From NCBI RefSeq assembly GCF_003751945.1, contig NZ_RJKL01000001.1:2852001-2916000 (forward strand): a stretch of DNA of 64,000 nucleotides, in the 5' to 3' direction. Shown in pieces: positions 14,329 to 46,989 of this stretch (position 1 is its first letter; each line of letters opens with the position of its first letter). The notes under the pieces were generated by a model. It ran no database searches, was not told the origin of the DNA, and was given only the letters and a program-made list of their open reading frames with translations. The position numbers and the translations under genes were made by a program. Source of the stretch: Couchioplanes caeruleus. GTDB lineage: Bacteria; Actinomycetota; Actinomycetes; Mycobacteriales; Micromonosporaceae.

Positions 14329-14401
14329 GCGCCGCTAGCTCAATTGGCAGAGCAGCGGACTCTTAATCCGCGGGTTGTAGGTTCAAGTCCTACGCGGCGC
14401 A
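14329..14401 (+). tRNA. tRNA-Lys (CTT)
   Basis: The gene folds into a complete cloverleaf: a 7-bp acceptor stem GCGCCGC/GCGGCGC, a D arm GCTC/GAGC, an anticodon stem GCGGA/TCCGC with loop CTCTTAA (anticodon CTT), a T arm GTAGG/CCTAC with loop TTCAAGT, and discriminator A. CCA is encoded in the DNA at 14402-14404. Its 3' part doubles as the attachment site of the element that follows; the integration left the tRNA intact. Confidence 0.97.
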
Positions 14402-14402
14402 C
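14360..14402 (+). repeat. attL core in tRNA-Lys 3' end
   Basis: These 43 bases, from the anticodon loop to the start of CCA, recur exactly at 35392-35434 and, with one base missing, at 51330-51371. They define the left boundary of the integrated element. Confidence 0.93.
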
Positions 14403-14415
14403 CAGCAGTAATACC

Positions 14416-14466: not shown

Positions 14467-15695
14467 TCACGCCTCGAACAGATAACCCAGCCGGTCGGCA
14501 GTCGCTCGCTGCGACTGCTTGGTGACGTCTACGTAAACCAGTTTGGTGATCGTGGAAGAGCTGTGGCCGAGGACGTCCTGAATCTTCTCGATGGGCACGC
14601 CCTGTTCATACAGCAGCGTCGCGCACGAGTGGCGCAGGTCATGAAACCGGATACGGCGAAGGCCGGCGCTGTCGAGCAGACCTGCGAAGTGGCGGTTGAC
14701 GTTGCGCGGCTCGATCGGGGTGCCGATGCCGGTGGTGAAGACGAAGCCGGTCTCCTTCCAGTCCCTGCCCTTGAGCTTGCGCTCAGCGTTCTGGGCCACT
14801 CGATGCTGGCGAAGTGCGTCGATGCACGGCTCGGGCAGACCGATAACTCGCTCGGAGTCGTCGGACTTGACCGGGCCGACCACGAGCTTGCCGCCGAGGC
14901 GTTGCAGGCTCTGCCGGACGTACAGACGCCGTCGACCAGGTCCACGTCGTGCCATCGCAGGCCCAATGCCTCACCACGCCGCAATCCGAGTGATAGGGCT
15001 ACCGCGTAGAGCGCGTACAGCCGGTCACTACGAGCGGCTCGCAGGAGCGTCTTCGCTTCGGCCCCGGTCAGTGGGGTGAACCGTGGTCGGTACCTATGGG
15101 ACAGTCGAAGATTCCGCGCCGGGTTCTCTGCGATGAGCCCGTCGACCACGGCGTCTTGAAGTGCCGCTCGCACCATCCGGTGTAGATGCCGGATCGTTCC
15201 GTCGGACGGCTTCTGCTCGCAACAAGCCCGAGGACGCCGGGCGCAGCATCGAGCCGGCTCACCCTTGGCAACCCGGGCAGTGTCCTTGCCCTGGGCGCAA
15301 CACTGGCAGGTGTCCTTCGCCCGGTTGAAGAACGCGCGCAAGGTGGGCGGCTGCACCTTGCTGAGCCGCTGGTTGCCGATCATCGGTACGACGTAGCAGC
15401 GTGACAGCCAGTCGTAGGTCCGCATGGTGCTGGGGCGAACCCGATCCCGGACGACTTCGCGCAGCCAATAGGCCATGAAGTCACTCACCGACTGGATGGT
15501 TCCGGCGACCCGGACACCGGCCTGCGACTTCGCTTTGAGTGCGGTCAGCTTCTCGTGTGCCTCCTCCCAGGAGCTGCCGTAGACGCTCCTCCGCACCTCC
15601 CGGCCGTCGCTGGTGTAGACCCAGGCGCGGCCCTCCCATCGGCCGTCTGGGCGTTGCCGTATGTTCCCTTCCCCGTTCACGTTGCGCCGGGGCAT
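14467..15695 (-). pseudogene. int: Tyrosine integrase, frameshifted
   Basis: The start ATG at 15695 overlaps the xis stop. The N-terminal frame gives an arm-binding segment (MPRRNVNGEGNIRQRPDG), a Cys-rich insertion and the catalytic Arg in SLGLRRGEALGLRW, ending at HDVDLVDG. The rest (RLYVRQSLQRLGGKLVVGPV, HDLRHSCATLLYEQ, LGHSSSTITKLVYVDV) continues in another frame, so about one base is missing near 14928. All catalytic motifs exist but are split. Without frameshifting the enzyme would be inactive, which would lock the element in the tRNA gene. Confidence 0.88.
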
Positions 15696-15955
15696 CAGGC
15701 GGCCTCCTCGATCAAACGCGCCTTGTATGCCTCGACGGACTCGGGGATAACGCGCCGGGCGCGTCCCACTTGTACGCCGACGATCTGGCGGGTCTTGATC
15801 AGCCGGTAGACCGTCCAATACGAGACGTTCAACATGGCGGCCACCTGATCAATCGTTAGCCAGGCGTTGTCGTTCTTCACCTCTACCTCCTTCCTTGTTG
15901 CGGAGTTCGGACGAGTCGGGCGCGCCGCGACGGCGGCCTGTGGGGAATCGGTCAT
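15695..15955 (-). CDS. xis: Excisionase-like HTH protein
   Basis: This 86-residue protein has a winged helix-turn-helix WLTIDQVAAMLNVSYWTVYR followed by RARRVIPESVEAYKARL, typical of Xis/AlpA-type DNA-bending factors of AICEs. The ATG at 15955 has GAGGAGA upstream and was preferred to an earlier in-frame ATG. It overlaps both neighbours (the rep stop upstream, the int start downstream), so rep-xis-int form one translationally coupled unit. Confidence 0.9.
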   Translation of the reverse strand: MTDSPQAAVAARPTRPNSATRKEVEVKNDNAWLTIDQVAAMLNVSYWTVYRLIKTRQIVGVQVGRARRVIPESVEAYKARLIEEAA

Positions 15956-16074
15956 GAGATGTCTCCTCGTGCTGGTGTGATGAGTGCTTCTCGTGTAGGC
16001 GGTGATGAGTGCTTCACGAGCAGGGCGCATCGACTGTGTGGAATATGTCGCTGTGGAGTTGTCAAGGAACGCTT

Positions 16075-16090
16075 TGACACGTACGTGTCA
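16075..16090. repeat. 16-bp palindrome, copy 1
   Basis: TGACACGTACGTGTCA is a perfect palindrome located inside the rep C-terminal coding region (it encodes DTYVS there). Identical copies lie at 21218-21233 and 23507-23522. Confidence 0.9.
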
Positions 16091-17598
16091 GGCAAGGTGG
16101 GTTGGGCCGACGGGTTGGGATCGTCGGCGTAGTCGCGGGCGGTGTCGGCGCGGCGGCGGGCGGCGTCGGCGGCGCTGTTGGCGAGCAGGGCGTCGCCGGT
16201 GGTGATCCATCCGGTGGCGTGGTAGCCGAGGCGGTAGACGACGAGGTCGGCTTGTTGGTCGTCCCAGAGGTGGGGGAAGCCTTGGGTGCGGCGCCAGATG
16301 GTGCGTTCGAGGCGTTTGAAGGCGTAGGTGACCGAGAAGCCTCGGGATTTGGTGGTGACGTGTCCGCCGACGCCGAATTGGTGGGCGTAGCGGCGCAGCG
16401 GGTGCCAGCCGTCGGCGGTGCCGAGGTCCCAGCAGGCGCGGATGAGGCGGCCGAGGTGGGTGTCCGGTCCGGCGTACAGCTCGATGGTGAGGTCGTCGAC
16501 GCGGCGGTAGATGGCGCCAGTGACTTCGGTGCTCTTGGTGACGTACTTGGCGAGGTAGCCGGTGAGCTTGCTCAGGTTGGCATCGTCGCCGGCGGCGTTG
16601 ATGGGCACGATGTCCAGGCCCTTGTCGCCCCAGGCCATCCGCCAACCTCGACCGTTATTCGCCGGATGTGACCGGGTGGTGTAGCTGGTCTTGGCGAACG
16701 CTTCTTCCAGAACGCTGGCAAACATGGCGCGGGTGACGATGCGGTCGGGTGGGACGATCGCGTCGGGGCAGTCGGGGTGGTAGCCGTCCAGGCGGATGAC
16801 CGCGTGGTAGTGGATCACCCCCCGGGCCTGGAACTCGTAGACCTTGACGTAGCGGCGGCGCAGGGTGACCCCGAGGCGTTTGCCGAGCCGTTCGAGCTCG
16901 CGGTCGAATTCTTGGATGGTGCGGCGCCACAGTTCGGGGGCTTCGTTGTTCCAGACGACCTGGGCGTGATGGTCGTAGCAGTCCAGGCACAGCGGCGTCC
17001 CGAGCGCGGGATCTGTAGTCGCGTGCCGGGCGGTGCAGCGCATCTCGGCGCCGTGCGGGCAGGTCTTGCCGAACGGCCGGCAGAGTGAGGCCCGGCAGGT
17101 GCAGCGGTCCTTGCTGCGGCAGTCGGCCGCGTGGGTCTTCACGACCCGGTGATGCACGGGGCCGAACGAGGGCGCTGTGGCGGTGAGGAACACGGCCAGG
17201 TGCTGGCCGAGTGGGGGCAACCCGTAGCGTCCGCCTTCGAGCCCAGCTCGGATGATCTGGTAGGTGTCGCGGCGGTACACCTCCGCACACGACGGGCACA
17301 CGGAGGCGCGGCGGTTGCCACACGGGGTGTAGATGACGCCGTCGGGCATGGCGTCGGTGTCGATCGTGGCGCATGAGCGTGCCGTCGGGGTTCTTCACGT
17401 CGATCGCACCAGTCAGCCGGATCGGGCGGGTACACGCGGCGGCGGCACTGACATGGTCGAGCCATTCGGGGAACTCACCCGAACGCACTCGATTGCGGGC
17501 GGTGATGACTTCGGCCGGGTCGAAGCCGTGCCGGGCGTCGGGGTGTGTGGCGGCGGGGGTGGGGGTGGCCCAGGGCCAGGTCTCGGCGTTCTCCCCCG

Positions 17599-17625
17599 CA
17601 CCCACAGCCGTGGTGGCGGTGGGTG
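17599..17625. repeat. Hairpin in rep 5' coding region
   Basis: The arms 17599-17609 and 17615-17625 pair with one mismatch. The same position in a duplicated copy of this leader (18067-18093) also forms a hairpin, with different but compensating bases. It is a candidate structured element for rep control or a replication origin. Confidence 0.5.
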
Positions 17626-17649
17626 TGAGAGGCAGCGTCGAGCTGGTCA

Positions 17650-18018
17650 TTAGGCGGTGGCCTTCGGGTTCGAGGTGACGTCGGTGCCGGTCGGCGTCGT
17701 CGGGTGGGTGATGTGGTCCGGGCAGGCGCAGCCGGAGGGTTGGATCAGGTCGTGTGCGGCGGAGACCGCGTTGAGGTCTCTGATCAGGCCGCAGATCAGG
17801 CACTCGGCGCTGGTGCAGGAGGGGGTGTGCCGGGAGTCGACGAGCCAGATCCGTTCCTCAAACAGCAACACGAGGGTGGGCCAGTACACCTCCGGGTTGT
17901 GCAGGTGTGGTCGCAAGAAGTCCTGCGCAGTCACGATGGCCGCCGGTTCGGGACGGCCGTTGTCGTGCGTGTCGTCCATGTCGAAGCCTTCCGGTGCGTG
18001 GGGCAGTGAGCTGGTCAT
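17650..18018 (-). CDS. Small Cys-containing AICE protein
   Basis: The ATG at 18018 (ribosome site AAAGGACC) gives 122 residues. The stop overlaps the rep start in a TAATG junction, so the two are coupled. Central HNPEVYWPTLVLLFEERIWL and a Cys cluster CTSAECLICGLIRDL plus CACPDH suggest a small metal-binding protein. No family was recognised; its place directly before rep hints at a replication accessory role. Confidence 0.65.
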   Translation of the reverse strand: MTSSLPHAPEGFDMDDTHDNGRPEPAAIVTAQDFLRPHLHNPEVYWPTLVLLFEERIWLVDSRHTPSCTSAECLICGLIRDLNAVSAAHDLIQPSGCACPDHITHPTTPTGTDVTSNPKATA

Positions 18019-18048
18019 TGCGGGTCCTTTCGGGATGCCGTCGAGGGG

Positions 18049-18120
18049 TCTCGGCGTTCTCTCCCGCACCCACAACCAAGTTGGTTGTGGGTGTGAAAGG
18101 CAGCGTCGAGCTGGTCATGC
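18049..18120 (-). repeat. Duplicate of the rep leader
   Basis: About 70 bases closely match 17580-17650, the first 24 codons of rep (here MTSSTLPFTPTTNLVVGAGE). The copy is not followed by rep sequence. It contains a perfect 13-bp inverted repeat with a one-base centre (18067-18079 with 18081-18093). Confidence 0.8.
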
Positions 18121-19005
18121 AGAAACTTCGACGGTGCTGCCGTTGTGCGGCTTCGTGTTTGCCGCCGTGGGCGGGTTGTCGGTGAGTTGGGTCAGGATGT
18201 CGGCCGCGATCGGGGTCGGGACGCGCAGCCTGACGGCGAGTTGGTTCGCTTTGATGTCTTCGCCGTGGGTGTCGCGGTGCGAGACGGCGATGGTGCGCGC
18301 GTTGGCCAACAGCGGCGCCGGGAAACGCTCAACCGGTTCAGCAGGGGCCGGGGCAGAAGCCGGTGCGGGCACGGCAGGAACGGGTTCCGCGGTTGCCGGT
18401 GTGGTGGTCTTCGTGGCCGGTGTCCGTCGTGCGGGTGTCTTCTTGGCCGGTGCGGTTTTCTTGGCGGCGGTGGCCCTGGTCTTGGTGGCTGCGGCGGCCG
18501 GGCGAACCTGCGCGCGCGGGATGTCGGGTGACGGGGCGGGCGAGGTGGCCGGCGTAAGTGCCGGGACCGGGTGGGTGGGCCGGGGTGGTGCGGTGGCGGT
18601 GAAGACGAGCTTGGACAGGGCGAAGAAGGCCAGCGCCGGGAGGGCGGAGACCATCCAGCCGAACACGCCGGGCTTGGCCACGGCGAGCTGTGCGGTGAGT
18701 GAGACGGCGACGGCGGCCACGAGCAGGCCCATCGGGTAGCGCACGGACGCCTGCGGGTGGTGACGTCGGCGGCGGCCGATCTCGATCAGCGATGCGGTCG
18801 GGATCAGTTCGCTGATGACGGCGTTGGCCCAGCCGAACCAGTCCGCGGTTCCGGCCGGACTGTTGGTGATGGTGAAGTCGTGGACGTGGTGGAACGAGGC
18901 AGCGCCGGCCATGGCACCGGTGAGCAGAACGATGATGAGCAGGATGCCGTCGCGGAGACGGTCGACGCGGGTGAGCGCCGGTCGACGGGTGTCGGTCGTG
19001 GTCAT
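18115..19005 (-). CDS. DUF2637 membrane protein, SpdB-like position
   Basis: The ATG at 19005 with CAGGAGG upstream gives 296 residues. Four hydrophobic segments fill about residues 15-150 (the first is GILLIIVLLTGAMAGAASF), the DUF2637 layout found in AICEs and actinobacterial plasmids. A long Ala/Pro/Lys linker follows, then a C-terminal helix-turn-helix-like stretch, ANQLAVRLRVPTPIAADILT. A role in plasmid spread or membrane attachment of DNA is inferred from position. Confidence 0.8.
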   Translation of the reverse strand: MTTTDTRRPALTRVDRLRDGILLIIVLLTGAMAGAASFHHVHDFTITNSPAGTADWFGWANAVISELIPTASLIEIGRRRRHHPQASVRYPMGLLVAAVAVSLTAQLAVAKPGVFGWMVSALPALAFFALSKLVFTATAPPRPTHPVPALTPATSPAPSPDIPRAQVRPAAAATKTRATAAKKTAPAKKTPARRTPATKTTTPATAEPVPAVPAPASAPAPAEPVERFPAPLLANARTIAVSHRDTHGEDIKANQLAVRLRVPTPIAADILTQLTDNPPTAANTKPHNGSTVEVSA

Positions 19006-19030
19006 GGTCGGGCCTCCTGGTGAGCGGCGG

Positions 19031-19327
19031 TCAGTGCAGGTAGCAGCACGGGCCGATGAGTCCGCGGCGGTTGCGGGTCGGGTAGGCGTCTTCGCCACGC
19101 AGGATCGGGCCGCGACAGCGGCTGCACTTGGTTGCCCGGGTGGGGCGTACTTGGCCGTCGAGAAGGCCAGGGGTGAACCGCAGCGGCTTACGGCGCCGGT
19201 TGCGGCGGCTGCGGTTGCGGGAGGAAGGCCGGCGGGTGGTCGGACGGTCGAGGGCCTTGATGGGCAGGTAGCGAACAGCGAGAAGCGCGGCGAGAAGGAC
19301 GATCGCGACGATCAGGTGGATGAACAT
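19031..19327 (-). CDS. Small membrane zinc-ribbon protein
   Basis: The 98 residues begin with one membrane helix (MFIHLIVAIVLLAALLAVRY), followed by a very basic stretch and a zinc ribbon-like Cys set (KCSRCRGPIL ... GPCCYLH). The ribosome site GAAGGGA is seven bases upstream. Single-helix basic proteins like this are common in AICE spread operons; the function is unknown. Confidence 0.65.
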   Translation of the reverse strand: MFIHLIVAIVLLAALLAVRYLPIKALDRPTTRRPSSRNRSRRNRRRKPLRFTPGLLDGQVRPTRATKCSRCRGPILRGEDAYPTRNRRGLIGPCCYLH

Positions 19328-19348
19328 GGCAGTGGTCCCTTCGGGGTT

Positions 19349-19564
19349 TCAGACGAAGTCGGTCTTGAGGCGGGCGCGTACCGGGCGCACGGCGAGGATG
19401 TGCAGGCGGCGGCTGCTGACGGCGATGCCGATGAGGTGTTCGGCGATGTCGGCCAGGTCGGTGGGGTCAGTGACGTGGTTCGGGTACGTGAATTCGCGAG
19501 TTTCGGTGGCGGGTTGGCCGTCGCGGGTTTCGTAGGTGAAGTCGGCGCTGTAGATGTAGATCAC
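19349..19564 (-). CDS. Small AICE protein
   Basis: The GTG at 19564, with GAAAGGA upstream, gives 71 residues beginning MIYIYSADFTYETRDGQPA and ending RARLKTDFV. The longer open frame beyond the GTG overlaps the neighbour and is not needed. I do not recognise the family; the operon position suggests a transfer or spread accessory. Confidence 0.55.
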   Translation of the reverse strand: MIYIYSADFTYETRDGQPATETREFTYPNHVTDPTDLADIAEHLIGIAVSSRRLHILAVRPVRARLKTDFV

Positions 19565-19577
19565 CGGAGAGGTCCTT

Positions 19578-19841
19578 TCACAGGCTGGAGCCGAGGGAGA
19601 TGACGGCGATGACGCCGTAGCAGCCGGGGCAAAAGACCGGGGCCAAGCGCAGGGTGAGCAGGTCGATGACCAGTTCGGTCGGGGTGTCGTAGTTCGTGGG
19701 GTAGACGGCGATGCCGTCACAGAAGCCGCACGGGATGCGGCAGGCGGGACAGGTTTCGAAGAGTTCGCCCATGGACTCGTCACGTCCGGCGGGCATGTGT
19801 CCCTCGATGCAGAACAGACAGTCGGAGACAGCGGCGGTCAT
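19578..19841 (-). CDS. Small zinc-binding AICE protein
   Basis: The 87 residues carry several Cys pairs (CLFCIEGH, CPACRIPCGFC, CPGC), consistent with one or two zinc ribbons. The start overlaps the stop of the upstream 58-residue gene (ATGA), indicating coupled translation. The function is unknown. Confidence 0.65.
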   Translation of the reverse strand: MTAAVSDCLFCIEGHMPAGRDESMGELFETCPACRIPCGFCDGIAVYPTNYDTPTELVIDLLTLRLAPVFCPGCYGVIAVISLGSSL

Positions 19842-20014
19842 CGGGTGTTCCCCGGGCGGTGGGTGCTGGCGGCGCAGGTGGCCGAGATGGTGAAGGCGAC
19901 GGCGGCGGTGGCGAGCAGCGGTCGGCCGGTGCCGGTGGAGTGGTAGGCCAGGGCGGCGAAGGCCAGGGCGAGGGCGGCGAGGATGTGCCAGCCGCGGATG
20001 GCGGGCTTGGTCAT
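19838..20014 (-). CDS. 58-residue two-helix membrane peptide
   Basis: The ATG at 20014 with GGAGGTCCCTC directly upstream encodes a small protein with two hydrophobic stretches (HILAALALAFAALAY and LLATAAVAFTISATC). It overlaps its neighbours by ATGA-type junctions at both ends, which strongly supports it as a real gene. It resembles the short hydrophobic Spd proteins of AICEs. Confidence 0.65.
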   Translation of the reverse strand: MTKPAIRGWHILAALALAFAALAYHSTGTGRPLLATAAVAFTISATCAASTHRPGNTR

Positions 20015-21258
20015 GAGGGACCTCCGGGGGTGCAGTCGAGGCAGGCGCCGCTACGGCGCGGGATTTGGTAGGGCTTGAACTGGCCGCAGGCGGGACAGAT
20101 GCGCTTGGCGCGGTTGGCCTTGTCGAGGGCAGCGAGTTGCGCGGGGGTCGCGGTGCGTTTCGGCTTGGCGAGGTCGATGCGGTAGAGGTAGGCGACGCGT
20201 TTGCCGCGACGCCACATCAGTTGCGCCGCAACGGATTGCCCGCCAGGGCGCAGATTTTGGGTGTGGAGCTGGCGCAGGGTGGCCAGCCCGTCGGGGGCGA
20301 ACCGGTACGGGAAGGTGGGGATGCCGTAGCGCTCGCCGGTGGGGTCGTAGAACACCATCGGGTCCTCCGGGCCGGAGTCGATGTCGCAGCGGGCTTCGCA
20401 GGCTTTGCCGTCGATGCAGACGAACAGCGGGCCGCGCGGATCTGGGTTTGTGGGCCGCATGACGGGCACACCGGAGGTCCCGCAGACGTGGCAGTCGCCG
20501 AACTCGTAGGTACGGGCTGGGGTGTCGCCGTGGGTGCAGGCGGGTCCGAACGTGGGATGCGAGTAGGTGTCGCGGTCGACGGTCTCGGGCAGGAACGCCG
20601 TGTTGCAGTCGGCGCAGACGATCGGGCCACCCTCTTCAAAGGCGGTCTTGGAGAGCCGGATTTTGCGGGGGCACTCGCATTCGGCGCTGACGCCGTTGTT
20701 GTTGTTCGTGCGCTGTTTGCCGTTGCCGGTGGGTTCGGGGTGGCGGTAGGCGCGCAGCGCGGCGGCGAGGGTGGTGATGGTGGCCGCGTACTCAGCAGCG
20801 GCGGTGTCGGTGAGGGTGCAGGGTGAGTAGCCGAACTTGTCGTCCTTACGGGCGGTGAGGCCGAGTTCGGCGGCGAGGGTGGCGAACTTCTTGTTGTGCC
20901 AGCGGCCCTGGCGGCTGGTGTCTTGGATGCCGCGGGTGTCGGCCAGGCCGTGGGTGGCCTCGTGTAGCAGGGTGGTGAAGACTTCGGCGGGGGTGCGTTG
21001 GAGTCCTTCGCCGGAGACGAGGACTTCCGGGAGTTGGGTGTCGCCGGATTGCCAGCGCAGTGAGGCGAAGTGGCCCCACTTCATCGATTGGCTGCCCTTG
21101 GCGGGTGAGCCGGAGCCAACGACCAGGACAGCGTCCGGGACTTCCGGGTGGCGGGTGCGGATGGCCGTCCAGGCGGTTTCGAGGGCGGTCAGCAGTCCGG
21201 CGGTGGTGAAGGTGGGTTGACACGTACGTGTCAGGTCGGTGATCTCGGTGGTGGTCAT
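20011..21258 (-). CDS. SprT-like metallopeptidase with RRQRL-type zinc finger
   Basis: In this 415-residue protein, residues about 25-160 look SprT-like with the zinc-protease motif LLHEATHGLAD. The middle has paired cysteines (CECPRKIRL ... CADC). The last about 150 residues match the RRQRL-motif zinc-binding proteins of AICEs (PYRFAPDGLATLRQL, RIDLAKPKRTATPAQ, CPACGQF ... CLDC). It overlaps genes at both ends. The 16-bp palindrome lies in its codons 7-13. Processing of a DNA-bound protein during transfer is speculation. Confidence 0.78.
   Translation of the reverse strand: MTTTEITDLTRTCQPTFTTAGLLTALETAWTAIRTRHPEVPDAVLVVGSGSPAKGSQSMKWGHFASLRWQSGDTQLPEVLVSGEGLQRTPAEVFTTLLHEATHGLADTRGIQDTSRQGRWHNKKFATLAAELGLTARKDDKFGYSPCTLTDTAAAEYAATITTLAAALRAYRHPEPTGNGKQRTNNNNGVSAECECPRKIRLSKTAFEEGGPIVCADCNTAFLPETVDRDTYSHPTFGPACTHGDTPARTYEFGDCHVCGTSGVPVMRPTNPDPRGPLFVCIDGKACEARCDIDSGPEDPMVFYDPTGERYGIPTFPYRFAPDGLATLRQLHTQNLRPGGQSVAAQLMWRRGKRVAYLYRIDLAKPKRTATPAQLAALDKANRAKRICPACGQFKPYQIPRRSGACLDCTPGGPS
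21218..21233. repeat. 16-bp palindrome, copy 2
   Basis: TGACACGTACGTGTCA sits within the first codons of the SprT-like gene, read in a different frame from copy 1 in rep. Confidence 0.9.
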
Positions 21259-21452
21259 ACGGCGGTCCTCCTAGGAGTGCGGCCGGTGAAGAAGTGCAGT
21301 TCGACGCCCAAGGGCACCGGCTCCGCCTGCTCAGCGGTGGTGTCGGGTTCGCGGGAGTAGCCGAAGCCCAGGTCAGCAGCGGGCGCAGCGGGAATGGCGT
21401 GGTGGCAGCGGATGCAGAGCCGCTGAAGCTTGATGAGGGTGGCGGTGCTCAT
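21255..21452 (-). CDS. 65-residue small AICE protein
   Basis: It starts at 21452 (MSTATLIKLQRLCIRCHHAI) with overlaps of four bases to both neighbouring genes. One CIRC pair suggests metal binding. No family was recognised; it is supported mainly by the tight coupling. Confidence 0.55.
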   Translation of the reverse strand: MSTATLIKLQRLCIRCHHAIPAAPAADLGFGYSREPDTTAEQAEPVPLGVELHFFTGRTPRRTAV

Positions 21453-21928
21453 CGCAGGGACCCGTGGGTGCGGTCGTATTCGTCAGCGGCGGCGCGCAGG
21501 GTGGCGATGACGTGCTCGGCGGTTTGGCCGGCGTGGTCGTTCCAGGCGTAGAGGTCGAAGTCCCACTCCGGGGTGGGGTCGCCGCTGGCGGGGTCGTAGG
21601 TGTCTAGGGCGATCTGCATCTGATCGGTGCGGTAGGTGCAGAAGAAGTCGACGGCGCGCTGGTAGTCGCGCAGGCCCTCACGGTCGACGCGGGGGTCGGT
21701 GTTCAGGTAGAGCAGGTCGACGCAGCGACCGAAGGCAGCCATGCCGATGGCGCCGGCGACGCAGGCAGGCGGGAACGGCTTGTAGCCCTCGGCGTAGTAG
21801 TTGCGGCGGTTCCAGCCGTGTTCCTCGAGGTAGTAGGCGGCGCCGCGCAGGATGTCAGCCGGGGTGACAACCACGGTGGGGCTGTCGGTGTCGGCGGCGG
21901 TGCCGGTCGGGTTTTGGGTACGGTTCAT
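21449..21928 (-). CDS. DUF6197-like protein
   Basis: The 159 residues include TPADILRGAAYYLEEHGWNR, PPACVAGAIGMAAFG and a C-terminal YAWNDHAGQTAEHVIATLRAA, which fit the DUF6197 family found on actinobacterial plasmids and AICEs. The start at 21928 has GAAAGGACGTGGCGTC upstream. The function is unknown. Confidence 0.7.
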   Translation of the reverse strand: MNRTQNPTGTAADTDSPTVVVTPADILRGAAYYLEEHGWNRRNYYAEGYKPFPPACVAGAIGMAAFGRCVDLLYLNTDPRVDREGLRDYQRAVDFFCTYRTDQMQIALDTYDPASGDPTPEWDFDLYAWNDHAGQTAEHVIATLRAAADEYDRTHGSLR

Positions 21929-21960
21929 GACGCCACGTCCTTTCGTGGGCGGTGGTGGTG

Positions 21961-22007
21961 GCCGACGGACCGGGCAGCTTTCCTAGGGCGTGGTCCGGTT
22001 CGTCGGC
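21961..22007. repeat. Intergenic inverted repeat
   Basis: The arms 21961-21973 and 21995-22007 match at 12 of 13 positions around a 21-base loop containing CCTAGG. It lies in the gap between two operon genes; it could be a terminator or a regulatory hairpin. Confidence 0.45.
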
Positions 22008-22054
22008 TGTTCCTATGGGGTCGTGCAGGTGTTGCCTTCCGGTAGATGTGCGGG

Positions 22055-22312
22055 CTATCGCAGCGGCTTGCCGCGGGGGTAGCGGGGGTTGGGCGGCAGG
22101 TGGCCGGGCTGTTTGCGCCAGCAGGGGCACTCGGTCAGGTCGAAGTCGTTCGCGTTGCCTAGCAAGTGGCATGCGCTGTCGTCCGCGATGGCCTTGTCGC
22201 ACAAGGCTTTCGAGCAGCAGTCGCAGTCGGGGCACGGAGTGGGAGCCGGTTTCGCCCAGGTGTGGAAGTCATCCGGTGGAGGCGGGAAGTCGACGGGCAC
22301 CCACTCGGTCAT
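22055..22312 (-). CDS. Cys-rich small AICE protein
   Basis: The 85 residues begin MTEWVPVDFPPPPDDFHTWA and contain a dense Cys cluster (CPDCDCCSKALCDKA, then ECPCW). It probably binds metal. The start ATG at 22312 follows GAAGGAGC. No family was recognised. Confidence 0.6.
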   Translation of the reverse strand: MTEWVPVDFPPPPDDFHTWAKPAPTPCPDCDCCSKALCDKAIADDSACHLLGNANDFDLTECPCWRKQPGHLPPNPRYPRGKPLR

Positions 22313-22332
22313 GTCCGTAGCTCCTTCGTGAG

Positions 22333-23196
22333 TTAGGCGACCGCGCCGAGTTCCGCGGCGGTCGTCGTGGTGGTGGTTCGGCGGGTGCGGCGGGTCCAGG
22401 CGGCGTAGTCGGCGACGCGGATGATGTCGTCGTTGCTCATGTAGGCGCCCTTGACGCGCGCGGGAATACCGCCGTGAGCGAGTAGGAGTCCTTCGCCGCG
22501 GTTGTCCGGGTCGATGCTGGCGGCGGAGAAGCCGCGGGCGGCCCAGCCGCGTCCGAGGACGACGTCGGACGATGACTCGTCGACGCAGCGGCCGGCGAAG
22601 CGCCAGGCGAACAGGAACCGCAGCGAGGTCGGGATGATGTCCGAGCTAGGGCGTTGGGTGGCGGAGGCGTCGATGATGCCCACGGCCCGGCCACGGGAGG
22701 CGATGTCGCGGTTGAGGGCGGAGAAGTACTCCTGCTCGGTCTTGGTGCCCACCGTGGCAGAGAAGAACGCGAGCTCGTCGATCGCCAGCAGGATCGGGTC
22801 GAAGTCGTCACCCTGATGGATCTTCTGGCGGCGCTGGGACAGCAGGTAGGCGTACCGGTTGTCCATCACCTCCTGCAGCCGTTCCAGGGTGTCGATCGCG
22901 TGGTCGAGGTCGGGTCCGACGAACACGTCGGCGCAGTCCTTCCACAGGCCGAGCTCGACCTGTTTGCCGTCGATGAGCACCAGGTCGACGTCGGCGCACA
23001 GCGCGGCGTGGCCGACGATGGTGTTGAGCAGGCTGGACTTGCCGGCGCCGGGCTCACCGCCGATCAGGATGTTGCGGTAGATCAACGGCAGGTAGACCGG
23101 GTGGCCGTACTCGTCGATGCCGAGGAACAGCGGGTCGAACATGGACAGGCCGGTGCCGACCGGGATGCTCGGCGGGGCCGTGGTGAGGTCACTCAT
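22333..23196 (-). CDS. traB: FtsK/TraB-type DNA translocase
   Basis: The 287-residue protein has Walker A NILIGGEPGAGKSSLLNTIV (about residues 45-60), DGKQVELGLW, Walker B ILLAIDELAFF and a sensor-like SATQRPSSDIIPTSLR, the FtsK-HerA signature of the pSAM2 TraB family that moves double-stranded DNA between mycelial cells. It is shorter than full TraB and has no N-terminal membrane helices, so the membrane part may come from the neighbouring 314-residue protein. The start overlaps the truncated duplicate upstream. Confidence 0.85.
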   Translation of the reverse strand: MSDLTTAPPSIPVGTGLSMFDPLFLGIDEYGHPVYLPLIYRNILIGGEPGAGKSSLLNTIVGHAALCADVDLVLIDGKQVELGLWKDCADVFVGPDLDHAIDTLERLQEVMDNRYAYLLSQRRQKIHQGDDFDPILLAIDELAFFSATVGTKTEQEYFSALNRDIASRGRAVGIIDASATQRPSSDIIPTSLRFLFAWRFAGRCVDESSSDVVLGRGWAARGFSAASIDPDNRGEGLLLAHGGIPARVKGAYMSNDDIIRVADYAAWTRRTRRTTTTTTAAELGAVA

Positions 23197-23426
23197 GGCA
23201 GGGGCTCCGATTGGGCCGTGTCGACGTCGGCGCACAGCGCGGCGTGACGGACGATGGTGTTGAGCAGGTTGGACTTCCCGGCGCCGGGCTCACCGCCGAT
23301 CAGGATGTTGCGGTAGATCAGCGGCAGGTTGACGGGGTCGGTGGGCTGAGGCGGTGCGGTGGTGGTGAGCTTGGACGGGCCTGCGCCGACCGGAATGCTC
23401 GGCGGGGTCGTGGCGAGATCGGTCAT
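23193..23426 (-). pseudogene. Partial 5' duplicate of traB
   Basis: The 77 residues repeat the start of traB almost exactly (MTDLATTPPSIPVGAG ... IYRNILIGGEPGAGKSNLLNTIV), including Walker A and the ribosome site, then break off after ALCADVD. Walker B is absent. The stop overlaps the traB start (ATGA). It either arose by tandem duplication and decay or encodes a short nucleotide-binding peptide. Confidence 0.8.
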
Positions 23427-23452
23427 GGCAAGGGACTCCGATCGGATCGGTG

Positions 23453-23493
23453 TCCGGCGTGACGCTGTTGACCTGAGTCGAGGTCACGCCGGA
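23453..23493. repeat. Inverted repeat before the traB duplicate
   Basis: A perfect 11-bp inverted repeat (23453-23463 with 23483-23493) has a 19-base loop. It lies 14 bases from the third 16-bp palindrome, in the only longer gap of this part of the operon. It is a candidate terminator, operator or transfer locus. Confidence 0.55.
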
Positions 23494-23506
23494 GCAAGCG
23501 GGGTGT

Positions 23507-23522
23507 TGACACGTACGTGTCA
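23507..23522. repeat. 16-bp palindrome, copy 3
   Basis: This is the only intergenic copy of TGACACGTACGTGTCA, placed between the membrane protein gene and the traB duplicate. Confidence 0.9.
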
Positions 23523-23529: not shown

Positions 23530-24474
23530 TCAGGCGTAGTCGGACGGGTCGAAACCAGGCGAGGGCGGCGCGGCCGACGGGCGCGCGTTGCGCGGGTTGC
23601 GCGGCCGGTCCTTGGTGTTGTTGTTGCTCGCGCGGGTGCTGCGCGGGGCGGGTACCTCGGCGAGGTTCACCCCGACTGGTGGCACGGCCGGGGACGCCGG
23701 TGCGGTGGCCGGCATGTGCGCGGGAACGTGGTCCGGCAGGGTCGACAGGACCGTGTCGGTCAGCGGTTCACGGCGGGTGATGTCGACACGGATGAACGGC
23801 GCGTACTTACGCGAGGCGCGGCTGACGCGGACCTCGTTGGCCCAGCAGGCGACCGCGAGTTTCTGCACCTGGCCGGGTTGTTCCAGGTCGTGCAGCGACA
23901 GGCCGGGGCGCAGCCACAGCCACACCCGTTCCCCGGCCCGGGCCGGTCGGGCGAGCAGGATGAACGGCAGCGTGCCTTGCCGGTTGTGCGCGACGAACGC
24001 GGCGAAACACATCCGCAGCCGGTGCCGCACCGTCAGGCACCAGAACAGCGACAGCACGGCCCGGCGGGTCGGGCCGTAGGCGGCAGGGCCACCCACGATC
24101 ACGGCCAGAATCAGCAGAGACAGCCACACCGGGGTGGCGAACATCAGCGACTGCCAGCCGTAGATCAGGAACGCGGCGAGCAGGATTTCGGGTAGCCAGT
24201 GCCAGATCATCCGCAGCACGGGCCAGATGATGATCAGAACGGCCAGAGCACCACCCGACAGGGCGCCGAACACAATCCCGAGCAGACCACCGAGGATCGG
24301 GTGCATGTAGTGCGCGGCGATAGTGCCGCCCAACAGGGCGACGATCACTGCGGTGACCCAGAACGCGACGATGGCCTTGCGGCGCTGGTTGTAGCGGGTC
24401 GGGGCCTCGATGACCGTGACGGTCTGCCCCCGAGTGTGCGATCCGAACAGGCGCCGGCCGGTAGACTTGGACAC
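23530..24474 (-). CDS. AICE membrane protein before traB
   Basis: The GTG at 24474 with AAGGGAGGAATCATC upstream gives 314 residues. Hydrophobic segments occupy about residues 35-155, in several helices (e.g. AIVAFWVTAVIVALLGGTIA and SLLILAVIVGGPAAYG). A soluble domain with GTLPFILLARPARAGERVWL and WANEVRV follows, then a Pro/Asn-rich tail. This arrangement recurs upstream of short FtsK-like TraB proteins in AICEs, so it may supply the membrane anchor; that is inference. Confidence 0.72.
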   Translation of the reverse strand: MSKSTGRRLFGSHTRGQTVTVIEAPTRYNQRRKAIVAFWVTAVIVALLGGTIAAHYMHPILGGLLGIVFGALSGGALAVLIIIWPVLRMIWHWLPEILLAAFLIYGWQSLMFATPVWLSLLILAVIVGGPAAYGPTRRAVLSLFWCLTVRHRLRMCFAAFVAHNRQGTLPFILLARPARAGERVWLWLRPGLSLHDLEQPGQVQKLAVACWANEVRVSRASRKYAPFIRVDITRREPLTDTVLSTLPDHVPAHMPATAPASPAVPPVGVNLAEVPAPRSTRASNNNTKDRPRNPRNARPSAAPPSPGFDPSDYA

Positions 24475-24596: not shown

Positions 24597-24980
24597 TCAG
24601 GCGGCCTTGATCGCCGGGACGGACACCACCTCCAGGCCCGAGGCCTTGAACGCGACACCGCTGCGGGTCTTGCCGTTCTGCTCCGACACCCACGGCAGCG
24701 CTTCCAGGTCGTGCGGGATGACCTGGTCGCCGTCCTCGGCGGCCGGCTTCTCCGCCGCGACGATCGTGACGTTGAGCTGACCGGACCACTTGCGGCCGAC
24801 TGCGCGGCCACGGCCGAACATCGGCGCGGTCCACATCGGCAGCCCGGTGTCCCGGGTGTCGATCTTCTGCGCGCCCTTGTCGTCGAGCTTGGGCACGATG
24901 TCGTCCGCCATCTCGAAGATGACGTTGGTGATGTCCAGCATCAGACGCGGCTGAGTACTGATACGAGGCTGATTCGACAC
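24597..24980 (-). CDS. First gene of the transfer operon, conserved small protein
   Basis: The GTG at 24980 (MSNQPRISTQPRLMLDITNV) has GAGGAG upstream. Its 127 residues include FGRGRAVGRKWSGQLNVTIV and a C-terminal SGLEVVSVPAIK. I do not recognise a named family, but its position first in the operon, just after a palindromic control site, is consistent with a conserved AICE protein. Confidence 0.65.
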   Translation of the reverse strand: MSNQPRISTQPRLMLDITNVIFEMADDIVPKLDDKGAQKIDTRDTGLPMWTAPMFGRGRAVGRKWSGQLNVTIVAAEKPAAEDGDQVIPHDLEALPWVSEQNGKTRSGVAFKASGLEVVSVPAIKAA

Positions 24981-25055
24981 GACTGGCTCCTCATGTTGGT
25001 GACGGCGCGGGCCTCAGCGCCGAGGTCTCTCGGGGCGGTCGCCCCAGGAGCAGAG

Positions 25056-25165: not shown

Positions 25166-26062
25166 CTGCCCCTAACACGATCTCTGGGTGGTCCAGTTGA
25201 TCAGTCTGCGCCAGCAGATCAGGATGCAGGCGAGGCTGACGAAGCCGTCGTGGATGTCGAGGCGTCGTTCCCAACGCACGGCCAGACGGCGGAACTGATG
25301 CAGCAGTGCGAAAGTCTGTTCCACGACGTAGCGCAGCTTGCCCAGGCCCTTGATGCCGGTTGTCTTGGGCTTCGGGATGATCGGTTCGGTGCCGCGCTCG
25401 CGGCAGGCGTGGCGGAAGCCTTCGCTGCTGTATCCCTTGTCGGCCAGCAGCGTGGCGAAACGCCGCCGTGGGCGGCCCGGGCGCCCGGCAATCGGTGGGA
25501 AGCCGTCGAGAAGTTCGAGGGCACGGCTGATGTCGGGCACGTTCGCGCCGCTGGTGAGCACGTAGATCGGGGTGCCGTGGCCGTCGCAGATCAGGTGGTG
25601 TTTCGAGCCGGGCTTACCGCGGTTGACCGGCGACGGGCCTGTCCCGGCGCCCCTTTTTTCGCGTCGATGTGACTGCCGTCCATCGCCGCCCTCGACCAGT
25701 CGATCCGGTTCGCCGCGTTCAATCTGGCGAGCAGGATCTGATGCACCTGATCGAACACCCAGGCCTCGCTCCAGCGCTGCAGCCGCCGCCAGCAGGTCAT
25801 GCCCGAGCCGAATCCGAGTTCCTGCGGCAGGTCTTCCCAGCCGATCCCGGTGTGCAGCACGAACAAGATGCCCTGCAGACACAACCGGTCCGGAACCGGG
25901 CGCGGCCCCGGAGCCTTGTCCGGCCACGTCGGCAGCAAGGGCTCGATCAACTCCCACAGGCCGTCGTCGACGATCCACGCCTTGCTCATGCCCGTCGAAC
26001 GAGACTGATCTTCACATCGCCATGCTGATCAACATCGATTCAGCAGATCGTGTTAGGGACAG
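25166..26062 (-). mobile_element. IS5-family insertion sequence (IS1031/IS427-like)
   Basis: The 897-bp element has terminal inverted repeats (25170-25183 perfectly matching 26045-26058, imperfect outward). It is flanked by TTA on both sides (25163-25165 and 26063-26065), the TNA target duplication of this IS5 subgroup. It landed between the transfer-operon control region and the divergent regulator gene. Confidence 0.88.
25172..25989 (-). CDS. IS5 transposase, two frames joined by slippage
   Basis: The first frame (ATG at 25989, MSKAWIVDDGLWELIEPLLP) runs to AMDGSHIDAKKG, the second continues GPSPVNRGKPGSKHHLICDG to the stop. The frames meet at a run of six A then G (minus strand, near 25656-25662), the usual slippery site for programmed frameshifting in this group. 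DDE-type residues are visible: Asp in AMDGSH, Asp in LLADKGY and Glu in YVVEQTFALL. The transposase therefore seems functional. Confidence 0.85.
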
Positions 26063-35391: not shown

Positions 35392-35434
35392 CTCTTAATC
35401 CGCGGGTTGTAGGTTCAAGTCCTACGCGGCGCAC
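35392..35434 (+). repeat. attR core (second tRNA-Lys 3' copy)
   Basis: This is an exact 43-bp copy of the tRNA-Lys 3' region at 14360-14402. The 5' half of the tRNA is missing, so it is not a functional tRNA gene. It marks the right end of the AICE and the left end of the following island. Confidence 0.93.
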
Positions 35435-35442
35435 AGGTGATC

Positions 35443-35481
35443 ATGGCCCCGACCAGGCTTTATACGTTTGGTCGGGGCCAT
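35443..35481. terminator. Terminator after the second att copy
   Basis: A perfect 13-bp stem (35443-35455 with 35469-35481) with a 13-base loop lies nine bases after the att core. It is related in sequence and position to the hairpin after the third att copy. Confidence 0.75.
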
Positions 35482-35504
35482 TTCTGTGTCCCTTGTGGAC
35501 GCTT

Positions 35505-35523
35505 GCGTGATCCATGCGTGATC
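35505..35523. repeat. Arm-like direct repeat, left copy
   Basis: GCGTGATC-CAT-GCGTGATC is two direct repeats separated by three bases, about 70 bases after the att core. An identical 19-mer lies at 51181-51199, and a 15/19 match at 51442-51460. Confidence 0.75.
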
Positions 35524-35864
35524 TGGAGACGCTGAGACCTGGCGACAGCGGGAAGCATCCACCGCAACGACGGCCCGCTGGTGATCCATCTTACCCTGCC
35601 GAACCGGCGCCATTACCGCCCGGATCCTTCGTTGACGAGCCCGTATGCCAAGGCGGGGTGTGGCTCATCAAGGACGTCGAGGGCGTGGATCAGGGAGAAG
35701 CGCCCCAAGAGCTGAGTCAGAGCATGACGGGCACCACACCAGAACCACCACGGGCGCCATACCGTCAGAACTGTCTCGTACTACCCCCGTCCGGGCCAAG
35801 GCAACTTAAGTTCGTCCTCAGGCAGCCGATGGGGTGGCGGTCCGATGCTCGAGAGGTGGCGGTG

Positions 35865-36806
35865 GTGACTGCGGGGCGTACACGCGCAGTGCTGCGCTGG
35901 CCAGCAGGGTTCGCCGTCCTGATGTTCGTCCTCACCGCAGCCGGATCGGTGCCCGCACAGGCGGGACGAGGCGACGATGACGAGGCGTTGTACGCGCAAT
36001 GCCGCAAGGCCGGGCAGGAACTGGCCGACGAGTACCGCCAAGTCGAGAACGCCTCGTTCATGCTCATCTGCCAACGGCCGGACGGCACAATCGTGGACCC
36101 GAAGCTGCTATGGCCGGCCCCACCGACCCGGCCGGCGCCGACCCGGCCGATCACCGCGGGCCAGGCAGGTTGCGTCGCCGGTCCCGGCCGGCCAATGGTC
36201 GACACGACACTCACCAGCGTCTCGGCGACGGCCGGGCCCGGCGAAGCGATCACCTACCAGTACCAGCAGCTCCACGGCGGCGAACCCATCAACGCATCCG
36301 GCATGGAGGTCCTGGAGTTCGATCCAGGCGAGCTGGCGCCGGGCGAAAGCTACCGCTGGCGGGCACGAGCCGACGACCGCCAGGAACAGGCCCGCAACCC
36401 CATCTCCTTCAACGCCCCGGACGACGAGCAGGGCTGGTCGCCCTGGTGCGAGTTCACCGTGTCCCCGGACGCCATCGACTACCGCGGACTGGGCGACGTC
36501 AGCCTTGAAGCGTTGAACGAGCTCGGCCTGCGTCCCGACCGCGCTTACACAATCAGGCTGACCGGCCGTCAGCAACGCCTGCTCCGCGCCGGCACGAACG
36601 TCGGCCGGACCCATGCCCGGATGACGCTGACCGGCCCGCGCTGGACCGACCTACTCCTCCAACTGACCGAATCGGCCTTCATCGCGGACGAGGTCGCCGC
36701 CGAAGCCGACGAGGACCACCCAGCGCCGGACGGCACCGCCTACCGCACGCTCGTGGACGCCATCTCCGTCAAACTCGGCGGACCGCACCATCCCCAGCTC
36801 AGCTAG
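35865..36806 (+). CDS. Secreted protein, unknown role
   Basis: The GTG at 35865 gives 313 residues with a Sec signal peptide (RWPAGFAVLMFVLTAAGSVPAQA). The mature part has an N-terminal helix (YAQCRKAGQELADEYRQVEN), a Pro linker and a fibronectin-like beta domain ending GWSPWCEFTVSPD, as seen in large secreted Rhs-type proteins of this group, then a helical C-terminus. It is probably exported to the cell surface or medium. An open frame upstream of the GTG lacks coding character. Confidence 0.7.
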   Translation: MTAGRTRAVLRWPAGFAVLMFVLTAAGSVPAQAGRGDDDEALYAQCRKAGQELADEYRQVENASFMLICQRPDGTIVDPKLLWPAPPTRPAPTRPITAGQAGCVAGPGRPMVDTTLTSVSATAGPGEAITYQYQQLHGGEPINASGMEVLEFDPGELAPGESYRWRARADDRQEQARNPISFNAPDDEQGWSPWCEFTVSPDAIDYRGLGDVSLEALNELGLRPDRAYTIRLTGRQQRLLRAGTNVGRTHARMTLTGPRWTDLLLQLTESAFIADEVAAEADEDHPAPDGTAYRTLVDAISVKLGGPHHPQLS

Positions 36807-37123
36807 CCGCTGCCCTCGTGTGTCGCACCCACGGTCAGTGACGAAGAATCGTCAGCACGCAGGCTCAGCGGCTTGGGCAGTCCCTTGGTCTGATCCGCAG
36901 CATGCCGAGACCATCGTCGGCAGAATCCGTGAGAGTTTGAGAGGCTCGTCCTCAGCTCCGGACCGCCGAGGCGCCCGATCGGGCCGGTCGCGGCGATCAG
37001 CCGTGGCTGCTGCAAGCCGAATTTCCGCCAACCGCCGCGTTCAGCGCGACCTTCGCCGCGCACCCTGCTCGGCCCTGGCGAACGTGTTCTTGGCCTCGCG
37101 GCTGTCCCTCGGCAACGCCAGGC
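36807..37123. other. Intergenic, nothing supported
   Basis: There is no convincing gene on either strand between the secreted protein and the IS5 inverted repeat. Confidence 0.5.
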
Positions 37124-38014
37124 TAAGAGATCAGTTCAGAAAGAGCGGACGCGGCGTCCGTCGATGTACTGACCGCCCGTCGGACGCTGAGGTTCATGCC
37201 CGACCGGATCCTGACTGACGAACTGTGGGCGCGGCTGGAGCCGCTCCTGCCGGCGCTGCCGCCCCGCCGGTTCCGTTACCCGGGGCGGCGGCGTACCGAC
37301 AACCGGGCGGCGTTGGAAGGCATCCTGTTGGTGGTGCGGACCGGCATCGCGTTCAACGACCTGCCCACCGCGGCGTTCGGGGCCTCCGGCGCGACCTGCT
37401 GGCGGCGGCTGACAGTGGCACGCCGCCGGTGTCTGGCAACGGCTGCACGAGCGGCTGCTGGCCGAACTACGCGCCGCGGGCCGCATCGACTTGGCCCATG
37501 CCGTGGTGGACTCCTCCCATCTACGGGCGCGGAAAGGGGGGATCACACCGGGCCGAGCCCGGTCGACCGGGGCCGACGAGGCAGCAAACACCACCTGATC
37601 ACCGACGCCGCGGGTACCCCCTTGGCGGTGACCCTGACCGGCGGGCACCGCAACGACGTCACCCAACTCCTGCCCCTGGTCGAGGCCATCCCGCCGATCC
37701 GCGGCCTGGTCGGCCGGCCGCTGCGCCGCCCGCGGCGGATCTACGCCGACCGCGGCTACGACCACGACAAGTACCGCCGGCTGCTGCGCCAACGCGGCAT
37801 CACTCCAGTCATTGCCCGCCGCGGCACCGCGCACGGCTCCGGACTGGGCACCAAACGCTGGGTCGTGGAGCGCACCTTCGCCTGGCTACACGCCTTCAAA
37901 CGCCTCCGCACCCGCTCCGAACGCCGCGCCGACGTCCACCAAGCCATGCTCAGCCTCGCCTGCGCCGTCATCTGCCTACGCAAGCTTCTAGCCTCTTTCT
38001 GATGTGACCTCTTA
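37124..38014 (+). mobile_element. IS5-family element, second type
   Basis: Imperfect terminal inverted repeats (37124-37145 and 37993-38014, about 19 of 22 matching) bound an 891-bp unit with one transposase gene. It differs from the IS at 25.2 kb. A target duplication could not be fixed with confidence. Confidence 0.75.
37196..38002 (+). pseudogene. IS5 transposase with frame disruptions
   Basis: The N-terminal frame (MPDRILTDELWARLEPLLPA) is normal up to CWRRL. The middle (WHAAGVWQRLHERLLAELRA ... AVVDSSHLRARKGG) reads in another frame after an apparent extra base near 37412. The C-terminal part (GPSPVDRGRRGSKHHLITDA ... VVERTFAWLHAFKR) returns to the first frame at a run of A3G6 (37533-37541), which looks like a programmed slippage site. 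The extra base probably inactivates the enzyme. Confidence 0.8.
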
Positions 38015-38036
38015 TCAGACCTTGTTGACCAGCCGT

Positions 38037-38513
38037 TCACCGTAGCCGCTGGAAATGGTCGCCCTCGTCGGTTTCCAGGATCACGGCGGGGCTGAAGCCG
38101 GAGTCTTTCGGCACCATGGCATAGAACTGGATGGTGCCGGGCCGCGGGACGTGCGAGTTGTCGGCGTCGAGCAGTTCGTCGAAGTCGAGCGCGGCCTTCC
38201 GGGAGGTCGGCGGCGAGTCGTTCGACGGGTCGTCGAGCTTCCAGTGGCCGTGGCCGTGGAACGGACCCACCCGGCCGGTGCGTTCGTAGAGGTCGCCCAG
38301 CTGGCCGGCCGGAACGCCGGTCGCAGTGAAGGTGCCGTCGGATCGCAGGTCGTAGTGGGCCGAACTCTGGTAGCCGGCCCAGACGTCGACGAAGGTGGCG
38401 GCGTCCACCTCCCACGGGGCCGTAGGACCGTCGTTGAGCATGTCGGCGAGGCCGCCGCAGGCCGCGGTCAGTAGCAGCGCGGGTATGGCCAACGCGATGC
38501 TTCGCTTCTTCAT
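38037..38513 (-). CDS. Lipoprotein, paralogue 1
   Basis: The 158 residues begin with a lipoprotein signal peptide (MKKRSIALAIPALLLTAACG). The mature part includes ATFVDVWAGYQSSAHYDLRS, DGTFTATGVPA and VGPFHGHGHWKLDD, a lipocalin-like beta pattern shared with its upstream neighbour. It overlaps that gene by four bases (ATGA). The function is unknown. Confidence 0.75.
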   Translation of the reverse strand: MKKRSIALAIPALLLTAACGGLADMLNDGPTAPWEVDAATFVDVWAGYQSSAHYDLRSDGTFTATGVPAGQLGDLYERTGRVGPFHGHGHWKLDDPSNDSPPTSRKAALDFDELLDADNSHVPRPGTIQFYAMVPKDSGFSPAVILETDEGDHFQRLR

Positions 38514-39420: not shown

Positions 39421-39462
39421 CGAAGTAGCCCCCGCACCAGTCCTGGTGCGGGGGCTACTTCG
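39421..39462. terminator. Strong bidirectional terminator
   Basis: A perfect 19-bp stem (39421-39439 with 39444-39462) has a 4-base loop, the strongest simple hairpin in the window. Confidence 0.85.
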
Positions 39463-39473
39463 TGGTGTGCCGC

Positions 39474-39895: not shown

Positions 39896-39898
39896 CCG

Positions 39899-40100: not shown

Positions 40101-40243
40101 GGTCAACATCTGCAGCACCTGGCACAGCAGCAGGTTCACCAACGACGCGTTCACGACCCCGCAGCCTGACAGCCCGCCGAGAGTCAGATCGCGCACAGAC
40201 CCGCACGTCAGGCCACAGAAACCGGGTTTACGAGCCGCACACG

Positions 40244-46980: not shown

Positions 46981-46989
46981 CGTCCACCA

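Follow-up and report, generated by a model that had tools for sequence, protein, structure and literature searches.

We analysed a window of 64,000 nucleotides from Couchioplanes caeruleus (contig NZ_RJKL01000001.1, positions 2,852,001 to 2,916,000), which carries a 21-kb actinomycete integrative and conjugative element (AICE). A perfect 16-bp palindrome, TGACACGTACGTGTCA, occurs three times in this element, and we read it as the operator of an element-borne switch tied to a SprT-like gene, a reading that we put at a probability near 0.9. With a probability of about 0.6 the operator is read by the element's own SprT-like protein, a relative of the Spartan-fold zinc metalloproteases, whose binding to the site we infer. 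Several computed results stand behind this. Sites of the form TTGAC-N8-GTCAA accompany the SprT gene: many elements have one where the gene begins, further sites stand at other operons of the same element, and in phages the sites overlap promoters. The half-site also differs where a single residue in a loop of the protein differs.

Three copies of the palindrome in one element

A scan of the window found exact copies at 16075-16090 (S1), 21218-21233 (S2) and 23507-23522 (S3), just as a first-pass annotation of this DNA had reported, and no fourth copy even with 3 mismatches allowed. Shuffled windows gave a mean of 0.23 matches at 3 mismatches and none of 100 shuffles reached 3, while base composition predicts 4.6e-6 exact copies for the window and 6e-4 for the whole genome. 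The annotation had also noted no copy outside the element and had named many chromosomal copies as a finding that would refute it. In the whole genome (8.43 Mb, two contigs) the only exact copies are these three, all inside the AICE, and the sole relative at 2 mismatches is TGACACTTAAGTGTCA, close to the end of contig C2. In its 18-mer form the AICE site is TTGACACGTACGTGTCAA.

All three copies lie between the two 43-bp attachment (att) repeats and thus inside one integrated element together with rep, xis and int. S1 is at the 3' end of rep, 119 bp ahead of the xis ATG. S2 covers codons 9-14 of the SprT-like gene, and S3 is intergenic, between a 314-aa gene (23530-24474) and the traB region, 80 bp ahead of the start at 23426 of an open reading frame (ORF) that repeats the 5' end of traB. 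We assign S1 to xis-int because the site precedes the xis match by 14 bp in one sister element (L058) and overlaps the called xis start in another (L075). The two genic copies are translated in different frames, PDTYVSK in rep and LTRTCQ in the SprT-like gene, and the suggestion that the constraint acts on the DNA is supported; the same sites are kept at the same places in sister elements. A conserved block, CTTGACAACTCCACAGCG, lies on the minus strand at 16049-16066, 8 bp from S1, and is present in sister AICEs too; it is possibly the xis promoter or a Rep nick site.

Within the genus, 9 of 67 genomes contain the exact word, and within the family 43 of 354 (this one included); the same letters reversed, used as a control, occur in none of the 354. 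A lack of conservation in sister elements, the other refutation that had been proposed, is therefore not what the genomes give. On the window shuffles, the genome search and the family-wide search we rejected chance as the origin of the repeats. Among the matches listed in a scan of public genomes, the hosts included Actinoplanes, Couchioplanes, Micromonospora, Dactylosporangium and others, and also Nocardia, Actinomadura, Microbacterium and Agromyces; a few matches in unrelated bacteria may be chance.

Sister AICEs of Micromonosporaceae have their copies where this element has them: at the 3' end of rep ahead of xis-int, where the SprT-like gene begins, and upstream of traB. At least three sites within 2 mismatches were present in 20 of the 27 SprT-bearing AICE loci. 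The loci with fewer were L042, L043, L061, L062, L079, L230 and L232; in three of these, L043, L062 and L079, a contig end cuts the locus short. Where an exact copy was missing in L051, L058, L068 and L229, a variant with 1-2 changes stood in its place (TTGACACCTACGTGTCAA and TTGACACGTAGGTGTCAA in L051), and in L223 all four sites had changed together to a CG-YR-CG core. In Microbacteriaceae elements (L096, L089, L092, L158, L095, L157) a CTCGAG block lies about 10 bp to one side of the site, and in L089 and L158 one copy is flanked by parA and its partner ORF on one side and by a small gene of the winged helix-turn-helix (wHTH) type on the other.

The site travels with the SprT-like gene

Family genomes with a SprT gene had the exact word in 31 of 34 cases, against 12 of 320 for those without. 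When contigs were chosen by the word alone, the SprT gene was seen in the fetched pieces of 33 of 62, and in the short pieces of 3 of 12 viral contigs chosen in the same way. As controls we used RepSA regions without SprT: TTGAC-N8-GTCAA was not found in 18 of the 20, the exceptions being L364, with three sites, and L370. These 20 regions were picked by the author and L370 was chosen in the knowledge that its genome has the word, so that 18 of the 19 others are site-free; three controls (L357, L359, L366) have one TGAC-N8-GTCA each.

Outside AICEs the palindrome stands just upstream of a stand-alone SprT-like gene. Several Nocardia have tandem copies 34-35 bp apart before the gene, with unrelated neighbour genes, and single copies are present before it in two Actinomadura and one Pseudonocardiales metagenome-assembled genome. 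What the sites in these contexts have in common is the frame TTGAC-N8-GTCAA. All six SprT-bearing plasmids that we fetched have sites in this frame: two from Microbacterium, one from Brachybacterium, one from Amycolatopsis FU40, pA387 (8 sites at up to 2 mismatches) and one from Natronoglycomyces. A protein search gave 11 distant homologues (L174-L183 and L185), six of which (L174, L175, L176, L180, L182, L183) have a different palindrome just before the gene, and in L181 a palindrome lies about 190 bp ahead of it. Five Streptomyces plasmids (L402, L405, L406, L407, L409) carry a longer palindrome, CTCACCTCTTAAGAGGTGAG, with one arm varying, about 30 bp before the SprT-like gene.

The genome from which the window comes has the site in two versions, and the replicon that carries either version also carries a SprT gene. 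The AICE version has a CGTACG core and the version on contig C2 (124 kb) a CTTAAG core. The second SprT homologue, on C2 (L227), has HHxxH in place of HExxH, and the operator version on that contig is TTGACACTTAAGTGTCAA.

We compared the ORFs of the phage, prophage, plasmid, AICE and stand-alone loci by BLAST, and the SprT-like family is the one protein family they have in common. As the loci had mostly been selected for SprT or for the word, the point of the comparison is that nothing else is common to them. There was no shared TraB or ParA in the Nocardia, Actinomadura and phage contexts, and no conserved neighbour or shared repressor family in Nocardia or across elements, where a diverged repressor could be missed. 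Single-linkage clustering placed integrases and SprT in one cluster (HExxH in 54 of 111), and SprT was therefore identified afresh through HExxH and tblastn. No candidate other than SprT turned up in every context that has a full element. We searched 67 congeners for TTGACANNNNNNTGTCAA and 20 relatives for TTGACNNNNNNNNGTCAA; among the matches listed no site recurs across genomes outside mobile elements, and these matches hence show no conserved chromosomal targets of the kind a host transcription factor would have. This, and the two versions in one genome with a SprT gene on each replicon, point to an element-specific reader.

Sites at phage promoters

In the Actinoplanes phage phiAsp2, where pas43 is the SprT-like protein, we counted 27 TGAC-N8-GTCA sites against 0.75 expected (40 of 58.6 kb covered). 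Thirteen of the 27 are within genes and 14 are at most 120 bp before a gene, with three in both counts, and one lies right ahead of the pas43 ribosome site. A prophage-like locus (L224) has 9 TTGAC-N8-GTCAA sites against 0.05 expected, 7 of them within called genes. All 38 IMG/VR loci found by protein have TGAC-N8-GTCA, and 30 of the 38 have the longer TTGAC-N8-GTCAA. When 38 SprT-selected viral stretches were scanned de novo for all 5-mers with gaps of 0-13, TTGAC-N8-GTCAA ranked first of 14,336 candidates, with 125 occurrences against 0 in one shuffle per locus.

With 266 non-redundant sites taken in both orientations, we found a TANNNT box at 17 bp behind TTGACA in 94 cases, compared with a mean of 4.4 per offset, and a second TANNNT peak (38) is located just before the site. 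The positions of the viral sites are operator positions, overlapping promoters, and the phage relatives show repeated, near-identical sites at promoters, as expected of operators.

Choosing loci by the phiAsp2 helicase in place of SprT gave 37, and the 21 with SprT have 2-15 sites. The other 16 have no SprT in the stretch; 13 of these have 1-8 sites and end before the usual place of SprT, and three (L309, L310, L320) have no sites. L309 and L310, probably one phage, do span the usual SprT place (the L309 contig continues past the stretch), and in these two we found no other repeated palindrome clearly above shuffles.

The SprT-like protein

The SprT-like gene of the window (20011-21258, minus strand) encodes 415 amino acids, with a Spartan-like metalloprotease domain at about 20-165, a zinc ribbon at about 188-222, and a C-terminal part of the RRQRL zinc-binding family (NF041638). 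Residues H99, E100, H103 and H121 are invariant in 26 sequences, which gives the HExxH and third His of a SprT protein; the catalytic Glu is lost in three homologues (L227, L244, L245). The Pfam SprT-like match was weak, with E of 0.019-0.075 in 2 of 4 proteins, the window protein not among them. The best structural matches were Spartan entries, PDB 6mdx and 6mdw, which we take to be Spartan/SPRTN, and they came up in the VIA second look only. Foldseek alone gave no match at E <= 0.001, and when PDB chains were searched by sequence none was convincing as a relative (best E 0.22). The family corresponds to phrog_6361, listed as of unknown function.

A loop residue that follows the half-site

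Between HExxH and the third His the protein has a loop, DTSRQGR, and we compared this loop with the half-site of the operator. The comparison started from 92 loci, 91 of them with SprT, and used 85; six (L061, L227, L244, L245, L403, L413) were left out for want of an assigned class. A locus was placed in the TTGAC class if at least one such site lay anywhere in the fetched stretch, and in another class by the palindrome before the gene; the half-sites of L236, L247, L400, L404 and L408 were read by eye. We did not use the invariance of the codons under S2, which would be circular for loci chosen by the exact word.

Gln117 (codon at 20908-20910, minus strand) is present in all 69 TTGAC cases and in none of the 16 others, and of 183 columns it alone separates the two groups. 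The separation remains without the viral loci (33 against 15), and also among the loci chosen by protein similarity together with the window (17 against 15). Loops DTSRQGR and DTSRQNR go with TTGAC. DTSRGGR goes with TTGTC in L410 and with TTGGC/CTGTC in L247, DTSR[DS]GNR with TTGGC, DTSCAGR (DTSSAGR in L181) with TAGCG, and DTCDEGNR with TTCCC, while DCNAAQ is paired with TTCTCGCG and DCS[AVI]SQ with CTCACCTC. In a tree built without the loop, L410 and L247 fall within TTGAC clades. Contacts between Gln and adenine are well known from DNA readout, so Gln117 as the reading residue fits the A at the fourth base of TTGAC.

Proposed switch and alternatives

In the switch that we propose, the SprT-like protein would form a dimer on the palindrome, and its Gln117 in the loop would touch the A of TTGAC. 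The protein would repress, or at least gate, its own gene, xis-int and traB (the sign of the regulation is one that we infer), and excision, transfer and SprT synthesis would then be switched together. Proteolysis is a candidate part of the switch, for example release through self-cleavage or through cleavage of a protein bound to DNA. We would give even odds to a wider claim, that Spartan-fold proteins of this family are sequence-specific DNA-binding regulators of phages, plasmids and AICEs, that the loop from HExxH to the third zinc ligand is a reading head with a partial code, and that SprT-less int-xis-rep elements are satellites of a helper AICE.

There are several points that weigh against the SprT-like protein as the reader or against the operator as we describe it. 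To our knowledge, no SprT-fold protein is known to read a DNA sequence. S1 and S2 are situated within genes, and no TANNNT was seen by eye in the window sequence at the expected offsets of S1-S3. In L093, L096, L129, L187, L188, L191 and L226 the sites are found elsewhere than at the SprT start, a search requiring a symmetric core found no symmetric palindrome right at the SprT start of most viral loci, and among the distant homologues no palindrome was found before the gene in L177, L178, L179 and L185. The phages Samy (L244; PMC11302927) and Attoomi (L245) have distant SprT genes, directly before an annotated putative immunity repressor or wHTH-like gene, and a repeated-palindrome search gave no TTGAC sites in them. 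The covariation has its own weak points: DTSRQGR was one of the two peptide patterns by which the viral loci were found, so their Gln is no test; in the protein-selected subset the column of Thr74 separates the classes as well as Gln117 does; the seven other half-site classes amount to few events; and the covariation is in part shared descent of a protein and an operator that are linked on the DNA. Finally, the small int-xis-rep elements L364, L370, L075 and L078 retain the site without SprT, and a profile found no SprT in 15 SprT-less genomes (12 with the exact word, G071 with a variant), an empty answer that proves little alone. These four elements are integrated, are without TraB too, and have operator copies at xis and rep. 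We would interpret SprT-less int-xis-rep elements as satellites or remnants, and these four could be satellites answering to a helper AICE.

The palindrome could instead be bound by a separate repressor with the SprT-like protein as its anti-repressor protease, comparable to ImmA/ImmR or IrrE/DdrO, and with sprT behind the operator such a switch would reinforce itself. We consider this unlikely, as BLAST gave no repressor family common to the contexts, the Nocardia copies have unrelated neighbours and one host has two operator versions, and an anti-repressor gives no reason for a loop residue of the protease to track the operator half-site. Somewhat less likely again is another regulator, either element-encoded and too diverged for BLAST or encoded by the host, with SprT as one of the genes it controls. 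It would agree with the site being kept in SprT-less elements and with the Pra-like, GntR and XRE regulators that AICEs encode, but it leaves the Gln117 covariation aside, and there is no host regulon among the matches listed for TTGACANNNNNNTGTCAA and TTGACNNNNNNNNGTCAA. On these matches, which include no recurring chromosomal targets, we rejected a host regulator as the reader. GntR/KorSA proteins were rejected too, as the recognition helices of 16 proteins in 15 clustered loci differ far too widely for a site that does not. The first-pass annotation had pointed to the helix-turn-helix (HTH) proteins of the element as readers, and this was probably misdirected because the family that every context shares, the SprT-like one, is without a recognised HTH.

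The same annotation offered TraB recognition or partition as the role of the site, to which part of a replication origin beside rep can be added. S1 does adjoin the conserved CTTGACAACTCCACAGCG block near rep, and one copy in the Microbacterium elements comes after parA with its partner ORF. We nevertheless regard these roles as very improbable: in Nocardia and Actinomadura the same word is placed at SprT-like genes, and phages have its frame, all of them contexts that show no TraB, ParA or RepSA; TTGAC-N8-GTCAA is missing in 18 of the 20 SprT-less RepSA regions; and the phage sites have promoter spacing. As general explanations all three were dropped, since several contexts do not have the genes. 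What survives of that proposal is a site for an element-encoded protein, with an element-borne regulator of transfer and excision genes as the best reading.

Other features of the element

The element has a tRNA-Lys, an integrase, xis, a replication initiator and an FtsK-like TraB, and is an AICE of the RepSA type. Its tyrosine integrase gene (14529-15695, minus strand) is beside the tRNA-Lys (14329-14404), the 3' end of which contains attL (14360-14402, plus strand), and an identical 43-bp attR is at 35392-35434 (plus strand). The xis gene (HTH_17; 15698-15955, minus strand) is downstream of S1. The initiator gene rep (RepSA, PF20199; 15952-17349, minus strand) has a 5' part (17340-17650) out of frame with the remainder, and given this break the AICE may be replication-defective, or the sequence may have an error. 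The traB-like FtsK/SpoIIIE ATPase gene (PF01580) is at 22333-23196 (minus strand), and the partial repeat of its 5' end, at 23193-23426 (minus strand), is directly behind S3, between S3 and traB.

A regulator gene of the SCO3933 family (Pra-like) at 24597-24992 (minus strand) scores 39.5 bits against a family cut-off of 80; SCO3933 is connected with Pra in an excerpt of PMC8584621. A DDE transposase gene (25172-25978) is inserted near the regulatory end of the element. A third copy of the att core, 97.9% identical, lies at 51325-51371, and 35434-51371 may be a second island or element in tandem at the tRNA-Lys, going by the sequence.

Comparison with known systems

The 16-mer was not found in open-licence PMC papers, and among the matches listed there for SprT with conjugation, or SprT-like with operator, nothing was relevant by title. 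We know of no sequence-specific operator for Spartan/SPRTN. KorA and KorB are readers of the HTH and ParB type, a half-site of the cluster A mycobacteriophage stoperators resembles TGTCAA, and both ImmA/ImmR and IrrE/DdrO tie a zincin metalloprotease to a mobile-element switch or to the damage response.

The pSAM2 system of KorSA and Pra, as given in an excerpt of PMC8584621, resembles ours in being an AICE with a Pra-like gene and control of rep-xis-int. The KorSA-like SCO3932 binds AC[TC]T[AG]TT[GC][TG][GT]ACG according to this excerpt, which differs from the AICE palindrome, and SprT is not named in that part of the account. Cluster A stoperators (PMC9283540, in excerpt) are, like the sites here, spread in number over a phage genome, but they are asymmetric and bound by a monomeric repressor, whereas here there is a palindrome, TTGAC-N8-GTCAA, and a linkage to a SprT-like gene. 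In ICEBs1 and its relatives ImmR is paired with ImmA (excerpt of PMC10233336); here no conserved linked repressor was found and the metalloprotease itself covaries with the operator.

Spartan acts on DNA-protein crosslinks, going by the titles of PDB entries 6mdx and 6mdw, and the proposed reader is related to a protease that repairs such crosslinks in humans. If the proposal is true, it links the SprT-like family (phrog_6361) to the control of horizontal transfer and provides a way to recognise and predict such switches across many phages, plasmids and AICEs of actinobacteria. The claim is testable, because the proposed reading residue and the half-sites are named.

There is a likeness in layout to KorA and KorB of IncP plasmids (PMC4889941 and PMC11790492, both in excerpt), where short operators at several backbone operons also answer to global regulators encoded by the element. 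Operator networks on mobile elements are already known, with KorA and KorB as the readers in that case, while the metalloprotease-fold reader that we propose here would be a new kind of sequence-specific regulator.

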